64,000 bases of DNA. Source: Candidatus Gastranaerophilales bacterium. Its GTDB lineage: Bacteria > Cyanobacteriota > Vampirovibrionia > Gastranaerophilales > Gastranaerophilaceae. Shown piece by piece: positions 18,989 to 33,897 of this stretch. Each line of letters opens with the position of its first letter. Position 1 is the first letter of the stretch. A program made the position numbers and the translations under genes. Under the pieces are notes generated by a model that saw only the letters and a list, made by a program, of their open reading frames with translations, made no database searches and was not told the DNA's origin. Location: contig CALUWK010000001.1 of NCBI GenBank assembly GCA_944324475.1, positions 62,001 through 126,000 of the forward strand, in the 5' to 3' direction.

Positions 18989-21900
18989 ATGTTACTTAAA
19001 AAATCAAATAAATTTATATTTGCATTTAGCTTAATTGAACTTATGGTTAGTTTAATTACAATAAGTTGCATTGCTGCAGCTTTTTCTCCAATCATTTCAA
19101 AAAAACTTTCAATGTCTTCAATTATGGTATCTAAACCATCAGGGGGATCTGAAGGGGATAGCTCTGGTTCTTGCCCATCTGGTCAGTATATGCCAAGTGG
19201 GACAAATACTTGCACAAAATGTTCTGATACTTTTTCTGGTTGTTCAATATGCACTGAATCAGAGTGTTTAGTCTGTAATTCTGGTTTTAATTTATTTAAT
19301 GGTCAATGTGAACTTAATAGTTGTCCAGCAAATACTATTAAAATTACCACTAATGGTAAAGATCTTTGTGTAACTCAGTATAATATGGGTGACAGATCTG
19401 AGTTCCCGGTTAACATTTCAAATGTTTCTGTAGTTTCAGTTGGTACAAGTTGCACTGCTGATGCCTGCTGCTGGCAGGGTAAGACCTCTGAATCTTGCGA
19501 TTCAGAAAACGGTGGTTATAGCGGATGTAATAGAACAGTATGTACTTACTATGCAGCAGAAAAAATATGTAACAACTTAAATTATGGTGGTATGGGCTGG
19601 AGACTACCTACTAAAGATGAACTCGCTGGATTTGATCCAACTACAAATTCAAAATATAAAGGTACATCAGGTCTTATGTTGTGTGACGACGATTCTGGTT
19701 ACGGTTCTGCTCAATGTGCTGATTATTATAATTGTGATACTAATTATTATGAATGTTCTTCAAATCACATTTGGTGTGTTCAAACTATTCAACCTAGTAA
19801 TTGGAAAACTAGTACATATGCAATGGGTTCGGGCTCTTGGAGTAGCTGGTCATCTACAGGTACTCGTTACGCCTATTCCGTACGTTGTGTCAGTAATTTG
19901 ACTTGTGCTACTAAATTTAATTCAAATTGTTTAGATTGTAGCGATACTACATGTACTGTCTGCAAAAAAGGGTATGTAGTTAATAAAAATGGTCAATGCA
20001 TAGCTGATCCATGTCCAGAGAATACTGTTTATGTTGAAGCTGATGGTAAAGAACTTTGTGTAACTCAATATAATATGGGGGATAAAACTGAATTTCCAGT
20101 TAATGTCTCTGGTGTCTCTGTAGTTTCAACTGGTACAAATTGCAGCGCAAATGCCTGCTGCTGGCAGGGTAGGACTTCTAATTATTGCAATTCAGATAAT
20201 GGTGATTACAGCGGATGTAATAGAACTTTATGTACTCAATATGCAGCAGAAATTATATGTAACAACTTAAATTATGGTGGTTTAACTTGGAGACTACCTA
20301 CCAAAGATGAACTTGCTGGATTTTATCCAACATATTCAAAAGACCTAGGAACAAGTGGTCTTATGTTGTGTGACTACTATTCTGGTTACGGTTCAGCTCG
20401 GTGCGACGATTACGATGTTTGCGACGGCTCCTACGATGGTAACTGCTACCCGTACTACGTTTGGAGCAGTGCGCTTAATAGTAGCTTTAATGCTTATCTT
20501 TATTGTTTGCATGCAAGGTCATGGGGTTTAAATTCATTTAATAGACGTGAGGCTAATTCTGTTCGTTGTGTGAGTAATATAGCATGCACAAAATTCGGTT
20601 CAAATTGTACAGATTGTAGCGATTCTGCCTGCACTGCTTGCAAGGAGGGGTATGCAGTAAAAAATAGTCAGTGCGTAGCTTGTTCTAGTGCTTTTGGTTC
20701 AGGTTGCACTTCTTGCAGCTCATCTGCCTGTACTGCTTGTTCTGATGGGCATATTTTAAAAGACGGAAAGTGTATAGTAAGTCCATGTCCAACTAATACT
20801 GTTTATGTTGCAGCAGGTAATAAAGAACTTTGTGTAACTCAATATAACATGGGGGATAAAACTGAATTTCCAGTTAACGTTTCTGGTGTCTCTGTAGTTT
20901 CAACAAATTCAAATTGCAACGCAAATGCCTGCTGCTGGCAGGGTACGACTGCATCTCCTTGTAATTCAATTAATGGTGATTACAGTGGATGTAATAGAAC
21001 TTTATGTACTCAATATGCAGCAGAAAAAATATGTAACAATTTAAATTATGGTGGTATGAGCTGGAGACTACCTACTAAAGATGAACTTAAAGGATTTGAT
21101 CCAGGTTCATATTCAATAAACAAGGGAACAAGTGGTCTTATGTTATGTGACTACGGTTCTGGTTATGGTTCTGCTTATTGCCATGGTTGTTATGTTTGTA
21201 ATGGTTCTAGCAGTGGCAGTTGCAGTCCAGATCGCATTTGGTGTAGTACACTTTATAGTAGTTCTAGTGCCTATAATTATTATTTGTATTCAGGGTCTTG
21301 GACTCAGGATCAATATGAAAGACGCCATGCTTTTTCCGTTCGTTGTGTCAGTCCCTTAAGTGAAAAAACTTGCAAAGACACCTTTGGCAATGGTTGCGTT
21401 GAATGTTCATCATCTGCCTGCACTAGATGTGTAGATGGGTATAACTTAAAAGATGGTCAGTGTGTAGCTTGTTCTAGTGCTTTTGGTATAAATTGTACTT
21501 CTTGCAGTTCATCTGCTTGTACTATTTGTAAAGAAGGATATGGAATAAAAGATGGTCAATGTGTTACTTGCTCTGATGCTTTTGGTGCAGGGTGTACTTC
21601 TTGCAGTTCATCTGCTTGCAATATTTGTTCTAGTGGATATACCTTAAAAAATGGCAAATGTGTCGTGGTGCCAACATGTCCAGCGAACACTGTTAAAATC
21701 ACAGTTAGTGGCAAAGACCTTTGTGTAACTCAATATAACATGGGAGATAAAACCGAGTTTCCCGTTAACGTCTCTGGTGTCTCTGTAGTTTCAACAAATT
21801 CATATTGCGGCGCAGATGCCTGCTGCTGGCAGGGCAGGACTGCTAATAATTCTTGCAATTCAAATAATGGTGACTACAGCGGATGCAAAAGAACTGTATG

Positions 21901-22255
21901 CACTCAATACGCTGCTGAAATTATATGTAACAACCTAAATTATGGTGGTATGAGCTGGAGATTACCTACTGAAGATGAACTTGCTGGATTTGATCCAGAT
22001 ACATATTCAAGATATAAAGGTGCTAGCGGCCTTATGTTGTGTGACGAGCTTTCCGGTTACGGTTCTGCTGAATGCTACAAATGCAGTGCTTGCGCTGGCT
22101 CCGACAATGGTAACTGCGAGCCGTACCACGTATGGAGTAGTACACTTTATAGTAGTTCGAGTGCTTACGAATACTTCTTGGGTTATGGGTCATGGAATTC
22201 GAATCACGGCAATAAACGGTACGCCTCTTCCGTACGTTGTGTCAGTGAGTTATAA
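18989..22255 (+). CDS. Type IV pilin-like, cysteine-rich protein with four tandem C-type-lectin-like (DUF1566/FISUMP-type) modules
   Basis: The 1088-aa protein opens with a prepilin signal: a Lys-rich leader, then FA|FSLIELMVSLITISC, with Glu at +5 of the mature form and cleavage after Ala12. Four modules of about 190 aa follow (near 110-304, 342-531, 600-789, 898-1088). Each has ELCVTQYNMGD, ACCWQG, NNLNYGG.WRLPT.DEL, GLMLCD..SGYGSA and a final SVRCVS, the WRLPT...RCV layout of DUF1566/FISUMP domains. Linkers carry short Cys-rich units (CTSCSSSACTACSDG.ILKDGKC type). It is probably a surface pseudopilin or adhesin cross-linked by disulfides. Ligand unknown. No pilus assembly genes are nearby. 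Confidence 0.8.
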   Translation: MLLKKSNKFIFAFSLIELMVSLITISCIAAAFSPIISKKLSMSSIMVSKPSGGSEGDSSGSCPSGQYMPSGTNTCTKCSDTFSGCSICTESECLVCNSGFNLFNGQCELNSCPANTIKITTNGKDLCVTQYNMGDRSEFPVNISNVSVVSVGTSCTADACCWQGKTSESCDSENGGYSGCNRTVCTYYAAEKICNNLNYGGMGWRLPTKDELAGFDPTTNSKYKGTSGLMLCDDDSGYGSAQCADYYNCDTNYYECSSNHIWCVQTIQPSNWKTSTYAMGSGSWSSWSSTGTRYAYSVRCVSNLTCATKFNSNCLDCSDTTCTVCKKGYVVNKNGQCIADPCPENTVYVEADGKELCVTQYNMGDKTEFPVNVSGVSVVSTGTNCSANACCWQGRTSNYCNSDNGDYSGCNRTLCTQYAAEIICNNLNYGGLTWRLPTKDELAGFYPTYSKDLGTSGLMLCDYYSGYGSARCDDYDVCDGSYDGNCYPYYVWSSALNSSFNAYLYCLHARSWGLNSFNRREANSVRCVSNIACTKFGSNCTDCSDSACTACKEGYAVKNSQCVACSSAFGSGCTSCSSSACTACSDGHILKDGKCIVSPCPTNTVYVAAGNKELCVTQYNMGDKTEFPVNVSGVSVVSTNSNCNANACCWQGTTASPCNSINGDYSGCNRTLCTQYAAEKICNNLNYGGMSWRLPTKDELKGFDPGSYSINKGTSGLMLCDYGSGYGSAYCHGCYVCNGSSSGSCSPDRIWCSTLYSSSSAYNYYLYSGSWTQDQYERRHAFSVRCVSPLSEKTCKDTFGNGCVECSSSACTRCVDGYNLKDGQCVACSSAFGINCTSCSSSACTICKEGYGIKDGQCVTCSDAFGAGCTSCSSSACNICSSGYTLKNGKCVVVPTCPANTVKITVSGKDLCVTQYNMGDKTEFPVNVSGVSVVSTNSYCGADACCWQGRTANNSCNSNNGDYSGCKRTVCTQYAAEIICNNLNYGGMSWRLPTEDELAGFDPDTYSRYKGASGLMLCDELSGYGSAECYKCSACAGSDNGNCEPYHVWSSTLYSSSSAYEYFLGYGSWNSNHGNKRYASSVRCVSEL
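19318..22252 (+). repeat. Four intragenic direct repeats encoding the lectin-like modules
   Basis: Approximate units are 19318-19899, 20014-20582, 20788-21357 and 21680-22252. Near-identical DNA blocks recur in every unit, for example GCCTGCTGCTGGCAGGG and the ATGTGTAACAA-type block before NLNYGG. Between these fixed blocks are two strongly divergent patches per unit, after the GLMLCD block and just before RCVS. The third unit resembles the fourth in its VWSSTLYSSSSAY-type stretch, suggesting recent duplication or gene conversion. Confidence 0.85.
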
Positions 22256-23239: not shown

Positions 23240-24691
23240 ATGAGCAAACAATTTAAACAAGAATTTTCTATAAAACAGGTTCCGACAGATGATCCTATGT
23301 TGTTGCAAAATACTTTGAATTCAATGTCAAATGGTGGTTTTGAGCTATATTCAATTTATGAAGCGGAACAAAATTCTAAAATAGTATATAATTGTATTTT
23401 TGTTAAGGAAAGTGAAAATTTATTGGATGAAGTTGATGATGAGTTGGTAAATTTTCGTTCTCAAGTCGAAAAAATGCTTTATTCAAAAGAAGAACCCTAT
23501 GAGCTTTGTTTAAATTTGCAAAAGAAAATAAGAGATAAAAAAGAAAAAATAGAGCGTGTAAAAAAGTTTCTTGAAAGTTCAAAAGATACTGAACGTGAGC
23601 TTTTAAATGATGAGATTAAGAAAGATATTGATGATTTAAATGATTTAAAAAGAGATTTAAAAGAGGTTTTAGCTCCTTCTAAAATGTCTAAATTTTTGGG
23701 AGAAGAAAAACTTTCAATTAGTTTATCTCAGGAAAATTATTGTCTTTGTGATTTTCAAGAAGAAAGAAATCTTTTGTCGCAAATTGTAAAAGTTCGCCAA
23801 GAATTAACAAAAGAGCTTGGCTACATTATCCCTAAGGTTCAATTTATTGAAAATTCTTCATTAGATGAATATGAATTTTCAATTAATGTCCATGGGGTAA
23901 GTGTCATGTCATCAAAGGCTTATCCTAATCATTTAGCTTTTTTTGAGGATGAATTAAACATTGAAAAAGCTCCAAAAAATTCTTATAGAATAAAAGATCC
24001 TTTAACCAAAAGAAAAATGGTCTGGATTTTAAAGGATGAATGTGAAGATTATTGGTTGCAAGGAATTGAGCCTGTTGAATATATTGCAAATTATTTGAGT
24101 TATTATGCAATAGTGCATGTAGATGAAATTTTTGATTATGGTGATTTAAATCGTTACATTGATTTTGTAACGAGTAAAAATTCGTTTTTGGTTGAAACAA
24201 TATTAGGTGATTTTATAAGTGTTTCGGAATTAAAGTATATTTTAGTTCAGTTGATTAGAGAAAGAGTTAGTATAAAGGATATAGTTTATATTTTTGAAAA
24301 ATTAAATGACTTTTCAGATGATTCAACTAAGGCTGATTTATTAGATAGATTAAGGATGGCGCTTGCAAGGCAAATTTCAGAAAGTGTTGCAACGAAAGAA
24401 AAAGAAATTTTTGCTTATGAAATTAATGATGAAACTATAGAATTACTTGAAAGACAAGCGAATAAAGAGGAGTCCAATATAAAAATTGATTTATCGAAGT
24501 TTGGTAAATTTAAAAAAGTTTTAAAAGAAATGAAAAAGGATATAATTGAAAGAAATGCTGTCCTTGTTGTTCCTCAACAGTATAGGCAGATTATTTTTAT
24601 TCTTGTTTCTCAGTTTTTTATTGATATTCCGGTTATTTGTTTTGAAGAAATAGCAAGTGAATATAAATTGAACATTCTTGGTAAAATATAA
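23240..24691 (+). CDS. Soluble FlhA cytosolic-domain (FHIPEP) homologue with DUF4177-like N-terminus and coiled coil
   Basis: Residues about 158-483 follow the FlhA cytoplasmic domain closely. LLSQIVKVRQELTKELGYI..P matches the LL..I..IR..LA.ELG..VP segment; YEFSINVHGVSV matches YRIKI.GVEV. EPVEYIANYLSYYAIVHVDE matches the ATHL..... helix; LKYILVQLIRERVSIKDI and RMALARQISES match the conserved FlhA sequences. The end DIPVICFEEIASEYKLNILG matches the FlhA terminus. FlhA needs about eight membrane helices before this domain; here residues 1-50 look like DUF4177 (LNSMSNGGFELYSIYEAE) and 60-145 are coiled coil. No membrane helix is present. It may bind export chaperones or substrates away from a gate, or replace that function. 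Confidence 0.8.
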   Translation: MSKQFKQEFSIKQVPTDDPMLLQNTLNSMSNGGFELYSIYEAEQNSKIVYNCIFVKESENLLDEVDDELVNFRSQVEKMLYSKEEPYELCLNLQKKIRDKKEKIERVKKFLESSKDTERELLNDEIKKDIDDLNDLKRDLKEVLAPSKMSKFLGEEKLSISLSQENYCLCDFQEERNLLSQIVKVRQELTKELGYIIPKVQFIENSSLDEYEFSINVHGVSVMSSKAYPNHLAFFEDELNIEKAPKNSYRIKDPLTKRKMVWILKDECEDYWLQGIEPVEYIANYLSYYAIVHVDEIFDYGDLNRYIDFVTSKNSFLVETILGDFISVSELKYILVQLIRERVSIKDIVYIFEKLNDFSDDSTKADLLDRLRMALARQISESVATKEKEIFAYEINDETIELLERQANKEESNIKIDLSKFGKFKKVLKEMKKDIIERNAVLVVPQQYRQIIFILVSQFFIDIPVICFEEIASEYKLNILGKI

Positions 24692-32029: not shown

Positions 32030-33004
32030 ATGGAAGATCAAGATTTTAATTTAGATGAAGGTGTAAAAGATGTTCCGGAATTTAATCTCGAAGTTTCGGT
32101 GTCTGATGAATTTAAAAGAGGATGTAAATTATATAATTTTAGACGTCCCGATAAGTTCTCTAAAGAACATTTAAAAGCCTTGCAGGATATTCATAGGGAT
32201 TTTGCACGTCACTTAGCAACGGTTTTAACTGGATATTTGAGAATGGAAGTTGAAATAGATGTTATTTCGGTTGATCAGTTGACTTATGAAGAGTATATTT
32301 GCTCAATGCCATCACATGTTCAAAACATGATTTTTAAACTTAATCCTCTTTCAGGAGAGATTTCTATGGGAATGAGCCCTGAGGTCTTAGCTGTTGTATT
32401 GGATAGAATGCTCGGTGGTTCTGGGGTAGTTAATGATCACAACAGAGAGTTAACTCAAATAGAAGAACTTTTAACTACAAAATTTGTTGAAAAAATTATA
32501 AAAATATTAGAAGAAGCTTGGGGGACTATTTTACCTGTAAAATCTGAATTTGTGACATTAGCAAACGGTTATCACTCTGTTCCTATCACAACAAGTGGTG
32601 AAATAGTGACTTTGATTTCGTTTGAAGTTCGTTTAGGCCAGAAGAACTTTGGTTTAATGAATATATGTTTTCCTTACCCTGTTTTGGAGACTGTTTTGCC
32701 GAAATTGACTCCGCAATATATATATCAACATACGAGTGTTGCAGCAAATGAAATAGGAAAAAATGAAACTTTAGAAAAAATTAAGAGTGCGGAGCTTGAG
32801 GTACAAGTTGTTCTTGGAATGGCAAAGGTTGAAATTAATGATGTATTGGATTTAAAAGTTGATGATGTTATAAAATTGGAACAAAAATTAGATAAAGAAC
32901 TTATTGCTTGCGTAAATAAAAAAAGAAAGTTTTTTGTTGTTCCGGGTGAAATTCAAAATAAAATTTGTGTAAAAATTGTTGATCAATATCTTGAAAAGGA
33001 GTAA
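32030..33004 (+). CDS. fliM: Flagellar motor switch protein FliM
   Basis: The 324-aa protein shows the FliM middle domain (YNFRRPDKFSKEHLKALQDIHRDFAR ... LSGEISMGMSPEVLAVVLDRMLGGSG ... LTQIEELL) and a C-terminal SPOA domain (AELEVQVVLGMAKVEINDVLDLKVDDVI, about 255-320). FliM forms the C-ring that sets rotation sense. The usual N-terminal CheY-binding peptide (LSQxEIDALL) is absent; the N-terminus is only an acidic tail. An AGGAAAG site lies before the ATG. The fliN and receiver genes follow with 3 and 11 nt gaps, so all three form an operon and their products probably assemble together. Confidence 0.93.
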   Translation: MEDQDFNLDEGVKDVPEFNLEVSVSDEFKRGCKLYNFRRPDKFSKEHLKALQDIHRDFARHLATVLTGYLRMEVEIDVISVDQLTYEEYICSMPSHVQNMIFKLNPLSGEISMGMSPEVLAVVLDRMLGGSGVVNDHNRELTQIEELLTTKFVEKIIKILEEAWGTILPVKSEFVTLANGYHSVPITTSGEIVTLISFEVRLGQKNFGLMNICFPYPVLETVLPKLTPQYIYQHTSVAANEIGKNETLEKIKSAELEVQVVLGMAKVEINDVLDLKVDDVIKLEQKLDKELIACVNKKRKFFVVPGEIQNKICVKIVDQYLEKE

Positions 33005-33007
33005 AAC

Positions 33008-33325
33008 TTGTCAATGGAGCCTAAAAATCTTGATATAACTAAGCTTGAAAGTGTTGAAAAACCGGTAAAGGTTGCTAAATCAAAAACGTACAGCCTTTTA
33101 CTTGATGTTGAGCTTGAGTTATCTGCAATTTTGGGGGAGACAGATATATCATTGAAAAAAGTTTTAGATTTAACTAAAGGCTCAATTATTGAACTTGATA
33201 ACAAGACAGTTGAGCCGATTAAGCTTCTTGCAAATGGTTCCGAAGTTGCAAGGGGTGAAGTTGTAATTATTGAGGATAATTTTGGTTTAAGGATTACAGA
33301 TATTTCAGAAAAGAGTGTAATTTAG
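33008..33325 (+). CDS. fliN: Flagellar motor switch protein FliN
   Basis: The 105-aa protein is essentially one SPOA domain: LLLDVELELSAILGETDISLKKVLDLTKGSIIELD, then VEPIKLLANGSEVARGEVVIIEDNFGLRITDI, the typical FliN end. FliN tetramers or FliN-FliM heteromers build the base of the C-ring and also dock export complexes. The TTG at 33008 is preferred over ATG 33014 because AAGGAG ends 6 nt before TTG but 12 nt before ATG. The N-terminal 25 residues are variable as in other FliN proteins. Confidence 0.93.
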   Translation: MSMEPKNLDITKLESVEKPVKVAKSKTYSLLLDVELELSAILGETDISLKKVLDLTKGSIIELDNKTVEPIKLLANGSEVARGEVVIIEDNFGLRITDISEKSVI

Positions 33326-33336
33326 TTGGTGTAATT

Positions 33337-33897
33337 ATGAGTGAAAAAAAAGTTGAAATAAATACAAATATATTAAAAGAAGTATTTAAAATAGCAGGAA
33401 TGAAGCCTCCTCAAGATATTTCAGATGAAAATCTTTTAGAAGCCGTTTATAAAATTAAGCATATTAATGAGTCTGAAGTTCAGGATGAAGTTCATCCTGA
33501 AGGGTTTACCCCTTCATCAAATAATATTTTGGTTATAGATGATATTGGTGTTGTCACGTATCAGTTAAAAATATTGTTAAGGAATTTAGGGTATAATGTT
33601 CAAGTTGCAAAGGATATTTTTAGCGGATTGAATACCTTTGTTCGTTCTAATTATGCGTTTGTTATAATGGATTTATTTGTTTCTACTGAACAAGAAGGTT
33701 ATACTCTTTTAAATGAAACAAAAAAAATAATTACAAAAAATAATCTTGATACTAAAATTGTTGTTATAACGGCATCAAATAAAGCTGAAAATAGGGTGAA
33801 ATGTTTGAATGGTGGTGCTGATATATTTTTAAAAAAAGATGCTGGTTGGCAAGATAAATTGCTTGAATTAATAGAGAATTTTCAACCAAGGGCTTAA
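33337..33897 (+). CDS. CheY-like response regulator with N-terminal extension
   Basis: The 186-aa protein has a 60-residue N-terminal extension with a helix NILKEVFKIAGMKPPQDIS, then a receiver domain (62-184). The acidic pair D68-D69 (LVIDDI), phosphoacceptor D112 (VIMDLFV), the VVITAS switch Thr and a FLKKD lysine are intact, so it can be phosphorylated. As third gene of the fliM-fliN operon it probably signals to the switch. Because this FliM lacks the CheY-binding peptide, the N-terminal extension could provide docking; this is inference. A kinase candidate is the CheA at 62930-64000. Confidence 0.85.
   Translation: MSEKKVEINTNILKEVFKIAGMKPPQDISDENLLEAVYKIKHINESEVQDEVHPEGFTPSSNNILVIDDIGVVTYQLKILLRNLGYNVQVAKDIFSGLNTFVRSNYAFVIMDLFVSTEQEGYTLLNETKKIITKNNLDTKIVVITASNKAENRVKCLNGGADIFLKKDAGWQDKLLELIENFQPRA

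Follow-up and report, generated by a model that had tools for sequence, protein, structure and literature searches.

What is the task of an FlhA cytosolic domain (FlhA_C) that is encoded without a membrane gate? In FlhA and SctV, a single polypeptide is known to contribute both to the membrane gate and to the receptor ring, which is a homo-nonamer. The locus described here, 23240..24691 on the forward strand of the window (the whole stretch of 64,000 nucleotides that was analysed, from a Gastranaerophilales genome of 1.72 Mb), encodes a gate-less FlhA_C protein, hereafter solo. A reading made from the letters of the DNA (the sequence-only reading) had described it as an FlhA cytosolic homologue in which a DUF4177-like domain and a coiled coil take the place of the gate, and had considered a free ring, a decoy or an adaptor for another secretion route. 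The lineages of the order Gastranaerophilales are, as far as we know, uncultured.

Architecture of the solo protein

The solo ORF is intact (483 aa, ATG start), and its start and full length are kept in relatives. Because only 486 codons lie between the two stops that bound the frame, no membrane part lies in frame upstream of the gene. The Pfam FHIPEP profile matched residues 129-475 with its positions 321-656 of 657 (E 2e-46), that is, with its cytosolic half only, and positions 1-320, which comprise the membrane gate and the FHIPEP loop, were left unmatched. The N-terminal gate of about eight helices was found neither by profile, nor by frame length, nor in the structural model, where the most hydrophobic stretch of 19 residues (approximately 450-469) falls in a helix and strand of subdomain D4. 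Both NCBIfam equivalog cut-offs were missed by solo (154 vs 772 bits for TIGR01398 and 94 vs 692 bits for TIGR01399).

In the AlphaFold2 model of solo (pLDDT 76), a beta-alpha-beta-beta head (residues 5-59; 23252..23416) is followed by a low-confidence spacer (residues 60-85), two helices (86-113 and 116-144) and FlhA_C. The predicted helical hairpin or coiled coil (residues 86-144; 23495..23671) occupies the place of the membrane gate and matched coiled-coil hairpins only; it is followed by a P-x-x-M linker motif (residues 146-149; 23675..23686) and by a complete cytosolic domain with the four subdomains D1-D4 (residues 154-483; 23699..24688), all on the forward strand. For the cytosolic domain, Foldseek against the PDB returned the FlhA_C structure 6ch2 (1.3e-20), VIA-align gave Z 20.4 over 320 residues (model residues 155-483), and hmmsearch matched PDB entry 3mix (5e-49); the nearest solved structures were the cytosolic domains of FlhA and SctV. 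The rmsd between model and FlhA_C was large (8-10 Å), which is consistent with hinge motion between subdomains. The ring-forming subdomain D3 (approximately residues 298-378; 24131..24373, forward strand; core ELKYILVQLIRERVSIKDIVYIFEKLNDF) is the best conserved part of the C-terminal half, and head and D3 are among the best conserved parts of the protein across relatives. The lack of membrane segments, the coiled coil replacing the gate and the presence of the whole cytosolic part, earlier placed at about residues 158-483, were thus borne out by profile search and structure prediction.

The head gave a pLDDT of 86 when modelled alone, and its conserved positions are N27, M29, LY36-37, E41, Y50 and CIF52-54, together with GW at 33-34 in most relatives. 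It resembles DUF4177 (PF13783) in being a short domain with a GWELY-like motif, and a beta-alpha-beta-beta fold is predicted for the head, but the matches were weak: PF13783 was matched in 13 of 25 members of the solo family (best E 3e-4) and was not matched by the protein of the window itself, and at the curated cut-off no match was obtained in 39 genomes of the order, the best score being 23.0 bits vs 25. Stand-alone DUF4177 proteins as a possible source of the head were not found in these 39 genomes, where the only matches were solo proteins, so that in this order the domain was seen only fused to FlhA_C. Among PDB structures, relatives of the head were not found at significant level; the best matches, the C-terminal domain of KCTD5 (Z 6) and GNAT and ACT-like pieces, are within the range of common arrangements. 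Outside the order, the first 150 residues of solo gave nothing but one marginal match of 37 residues. The expression DUF4177-like in the sequence-only reading was fair, while identity with DUF4177 goes beyond matches that lie below the cut-off.

Distribution, paralogy and the second export system

Solo, with the same N-terminus, was present in 53 of the 56 other sampled genomes of the order, and was missing in G029 (98% complete), G030 (93% complete) and the fragmented G054. In the class sample it was present in 187 of 188 same-family genomes, all but G029 (hand count of rows). Outside the order, the class sample did not contain this architecture; only full-length FlhA-type matches were obtained there (full length checked in nine genomes), and E-values rose sharply at the order boundary, from at most 1e-143 inside to about 1e-81 or higher outside. 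Upstream sequences in relatives did not reveal fused membrane helices lost in the window; the relatives share the solo N-terminus instead. In comparisons within the genus, dN/dS was about 0.06 (range about 0.06-0.08), which indicates that the gene is under strong purifying selection. A promoter scan 5' of the gene gave no clear excess with respect to shuffled sequence, and no conserved operon partner was found within approximately 10 kb at the 21 loci searched. Upstream of solo in the window, at 18989-22255, and also at L035:800-3019, large cysteine-rich proteins are encoded whose N-terminus resembles that of type IV pilins and which contain several nearly identical repeated units (DUF1566-like by eye).

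No full flhA lies within the window, as the sequence-only reading had stated. A search of the same genome yielded two full-length FlhA proteins, FlhA-I, which adjoins FlhB on contig 15, and FlhA-II, located on the same contig as solo (contig positions 136692-138668), 10.7 kb beyond the end of the window. FlhA-II is a full-length gate within an operon on the reverse strand (contig positions 136653-143249; L034:10653-17249) that consists of fliE, a lytic transglycosylase, fliF, an unnamed protein in the fliG position, fliH and flhA; the names fliE, fliH and transglycosylase were given by reading the sequence, and FliF was also identified by Pfam. A second FliF and a second FlhB of the genome correspond to the FlhA-II set. 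This operon is a second, non-flagellar export system of flagellar type, designated here system II.

In the tree of cytosolic domains (56 rows), the solo proteins formed one clade (100/100), sister to FlhA-II (95/85), and FlhA-I was placed apart; this phylogeny makes solo a paralogue of FlhA-II, which is the gate of the second system. An origin of solo inside the order's own FlhA-II clade was weakly rejected (AU p 0.03), a result qualified by the length of the solo branch (1.58). Between genera, solo proteins share 30-42% identity vs 72-82% for FlhA-II, which indicates that solo evolves much faster.

FlhA-I, FliF-I, FlhB-I and FliM were all absent from eight genomes, namely G010, G027, G028, G033, G034 and G047, in which solo was kept, and G029 and G030; of these, G047 has a completeness of only 87%, and in G034 one further, weak match to the FliF domain was obtained. 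Flagellin was also absent from these eight genomes, except for one copy in G027. FlhA-II, FliF-II and FlhB-II were retained in all eight, and FlhA-II was present in every genome of the order with a completeness of 90% or more, including those that have lost the flagellum. The retention of solo together with FlhA-II where the flagellar set was lost means that the solo gene tracks system II. In the window, the region 32030-33897 encodes flagellar fliM and fliN (operon at 32030-33325) and a response regulator with an N-terminal extension. Since FliM is lost with the flagellum across the order while solo stays, fliM-fliN is flagellar and not the partner of solo, and the partnership that had been considered between solo and this nearby operon is not supported.

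Additional genes were observed close to system II. In G033, which lacks flagellar FlhA, FliF, FliM and flagellin, FliJ/YscO-like, FliK-like and FlgE/F/G-like genes (L154:2652-4816) lie approximately 5 kb from FlhB-II, which suggests that one rod- or hook-like protein, if not more, is part of system II. A recurring family of proteins starting with MG(M/L)xASQxRxLxLxxR/Q was also noticed (L150:7765-9018, L035:13584-14483, L153:1586-2560 and L153:3871-4203); the three members scanned gave no convincing Pfam match, some members are near system II genes, and the proteins are candidates for substrates secreted by system II or for structural components of it.

Gene sets of this kind have been reported before. 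In the MEL-COG list of Di Rienzi et al. 2013 (PMC3787301), two flhA genes are entered as flagellum-related, although filament, cap, and L and P rings are lacking in MEL.A1. Partial flagellar sets of this kind were read by Soo et al. 2014 (PMC4040986) as encoding no functional flagellum. We infer that one of the two flhA genes of Di Rienzi et al. may be the solo protein.

Conserved and altered residues, and other gate-less forms

The linker proline P146 was conserved in 48 of 48 solo proteins, and position 149 was M or F in all 48 (M in 45, F in 3); both P and M were present in 20 of 20 FlhA-II proteins. Residue M149 is located at, or next to, the position of Trp354 in Salmonella and Phe367 in Yersinia SctV, an equivalence counted by hand from G368. 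Trp354 of Salmonella, Trp350 of Vibrio and Phe367 of Yersinia plug a groove of the neighbouring subunit and stabilise the ring (PMC8213127, PMC8166844). Solo thus carries a hydrophobic linker residue at or next to the plug position, as a putative plug for a neighbouring subunit.

The cleft between D1 and D2 (D2, approximately residues 230-277; 23927..24070, forward strand; aligned with FlhA-I, FlhA-II and Salmonella FlhA) is altered. In flagellar FlhA, D456, F459 and T490 form this cleft and bind chaperones, and F459A lowers the stability of the chaperone complex in Salmonella (PMC5932034). Of this dimple solo retains D456 only (as D253); F459 has become T256 and, on the side of D1, T490 and H491 have become N284 and Y285, respectively. 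Across solo proteins, the F459 site is mostly T, S or N (Y or F in FlhA-II, F in FlhA-I), the T490 site is mostly N, S, R, K or E, the H491 site is mostly Y, A or N, and G368, otherwise invariant, is S. The chaperone dimple is not conserved in SctV either (PMC5932034), so that loss of the cleft alone leaves room for another docking mode. With subdomain limits that we take to be those of Salmonella FlhA, mean identity between solo and FlhA-II was 0.32 in D1, 0.16 in D2, 0.35 in D3 and 0.19 in D4, D2 and D4 being the most diverged.

Solo is not the only gate-less form in the order. In parts of it, mini FlhA_C proteins of 210-340 aa keep D1 and D3, and mostly these alone, while D2 and D4 are absent according to alignment and length (L200:7037-7684, L200:8804-9520, L201:3001-3750 and loci L210-L226); some are soluble and others have one or two likely membrane helices, and those of G220 are near chemotaxis-like genes. 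In genus g31, fusions of 575-593 aa (L212:383-2164, L213:1111-2892, L218:1093-2817 and L219:652-2430) consist of two likely membrane helices, D1, D3 and D4, without D2 (gap at 253-262). In the N-terminal domain of these fusions, hmmsearch detected homology (3e-32 to 7e-20) with the product of the gene that separates fliF from fliH in the FlhA-II operon; the fusions resemble FlhA-II (41-54%) more than solo (28%). The g31 proteins are distinct from solo, but a fusion of this kind, with a component of system II, speaks for free FlhA_C modules operating together with system II.

Proposed role and comparison with known systems

Starting from the established paralogy, architecture, distribution and residue changes of solo, we tentatively propose, as the likeliest of the readings considered, though one that may well be wrong, that it is a ring-compatible accessory subunit of the system II export gate, probably for substrate sorting, and not itself a gate. 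Linker and D3 would let solo dock on the cytosolic ring of FlhA-II, co-assemble with it or form a ring beneath it, head and hairpin would recruit a substrate, chaperone or regulator, and in this way solo would have an effect on secretion by system II. Of the free ring, decoy and adaptor considered earlier, the last comes closest to the data, which point to an accessory component in a different export route, since solo is a gate-less paralogue of FlhA-II that is retained in flagellum-less genomes. Against such a role, no conserved neighbour gene ties solo to system II, and it evolves faster than would be usual for a protein sharing a ring with FlhA-II. FlhA-II systems without solo exist in G029, G030 and other orders of the class, so that solo is not obligatory. 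A broader and rather doubtful extension is that the export ring of Gastranaerophilales is not a homo-nonamer, and that solo and, in some lineages, the minis with D1 and D3 and the operon-domain fusions are incorporated into the ring of FlhA-II or stacked on it, giving it interchangeable reception heads.

Other explanations account for part of these data. Truncation, frameshift or misassembly of a full-length FlhA, for which nothing speaks except the absent gate, is ruled out for practical purposes by a complete ORF, an architecture shared by many genera from different studies, the single clade and the strong purifying selection. That solo is a flagellar part, a second receptor serving FlhA-I with the fliM-fliN operon located 7.3 kb away, is very improbable: this reading is largely refuted by the phylogenetic profile, with six genomes keeping solo after loss of the flagellar set, and identity between solo and FlhA-I is only 17-20%.

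It is unlikely, though worth weighing, that solo assembles into a soluble oligomer of its own and serves in something other than type III export, for example as scaffold or signalling hub; its condition of orphan gene without export neighbours, its fast divergence and the position of the G220 mini paralogues would agree with this, but solo tracks system II in nearly all genomes of the order, conserves the linker and D3 positions common to FlhA-II, and has a related gate-less architecture fused to a system II operon domain. Less probable still is a decoy or brake, in which soluble solo would limit secretion, either by entering or capping the ring of FlhA-II or by holding export clients of system II in the cytosol. 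Ring contacts kept in linker and D3 beside an altered docking cleft, as in a non-productive subunit, and the tolerated loss of solo in G029 and G030 fit such a function; a titrator of chaperones, however, should retain the cleft, and a mere decoy would not need a head that is among the best conserved parts of the protein.

The order-wide paralogue of the ring half, together with the gate-less forms lacking D2, constitutes a natural experiment that separates ring-building from substrate-docking. It also suggests a different view of the partial sets of flagellar genes in non-motile members of the order, which were taken for genome reduction or non-functional flagella in 2013-2014: in these common gut bacteria, relatives of the cyanobacteria, the sets would be a second export system that is being maintained and has accessory proteins of its own. 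The parts of solo are known (FlhA_C and a DUF4177-like domain); no report of a stand-alone FlhA cytosolic-domain paralogue, and no description of a maintained gate-less one, was found in the open-licence literature.

With the FlhA/SctV gate proteins (PF00771; TIGR01398, TIGR01399; 6ch2, 3a5i, 7amy, 7alw), solo shares the complete D1-D4, the linker and the D3 sequence, but it lacks the eight-helix gate and the FHIPEP loop, bears head and hairpin instead, and has a changed cleft and a strongly diverged D4. Its closest paralogue, FlhA-II of the same genome, shares 26% identity with solo across the C-terminal part, rising to 31% in the best-matching stretch, and has the same P-x-x-M linker; it differs in being a full-length gate in an operon, with a conserved cleft (Y459, mostly T490, H491 and G368) and much slower evolution. 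The nearest analogues of solo are the stand-alone cytosolic domains of FlhB of FlhX or YlqH type. FlhX has been listed among export proteins (PMC9321776). Solo resembles this type in that the cytosolic domain of a gate protein is encoded alone beside full-length copies, here FlhA-I and FlhA-II, and differs in deriving from FlhA, not FlhB, and in possessing an additional N-terminal head and hairpin.
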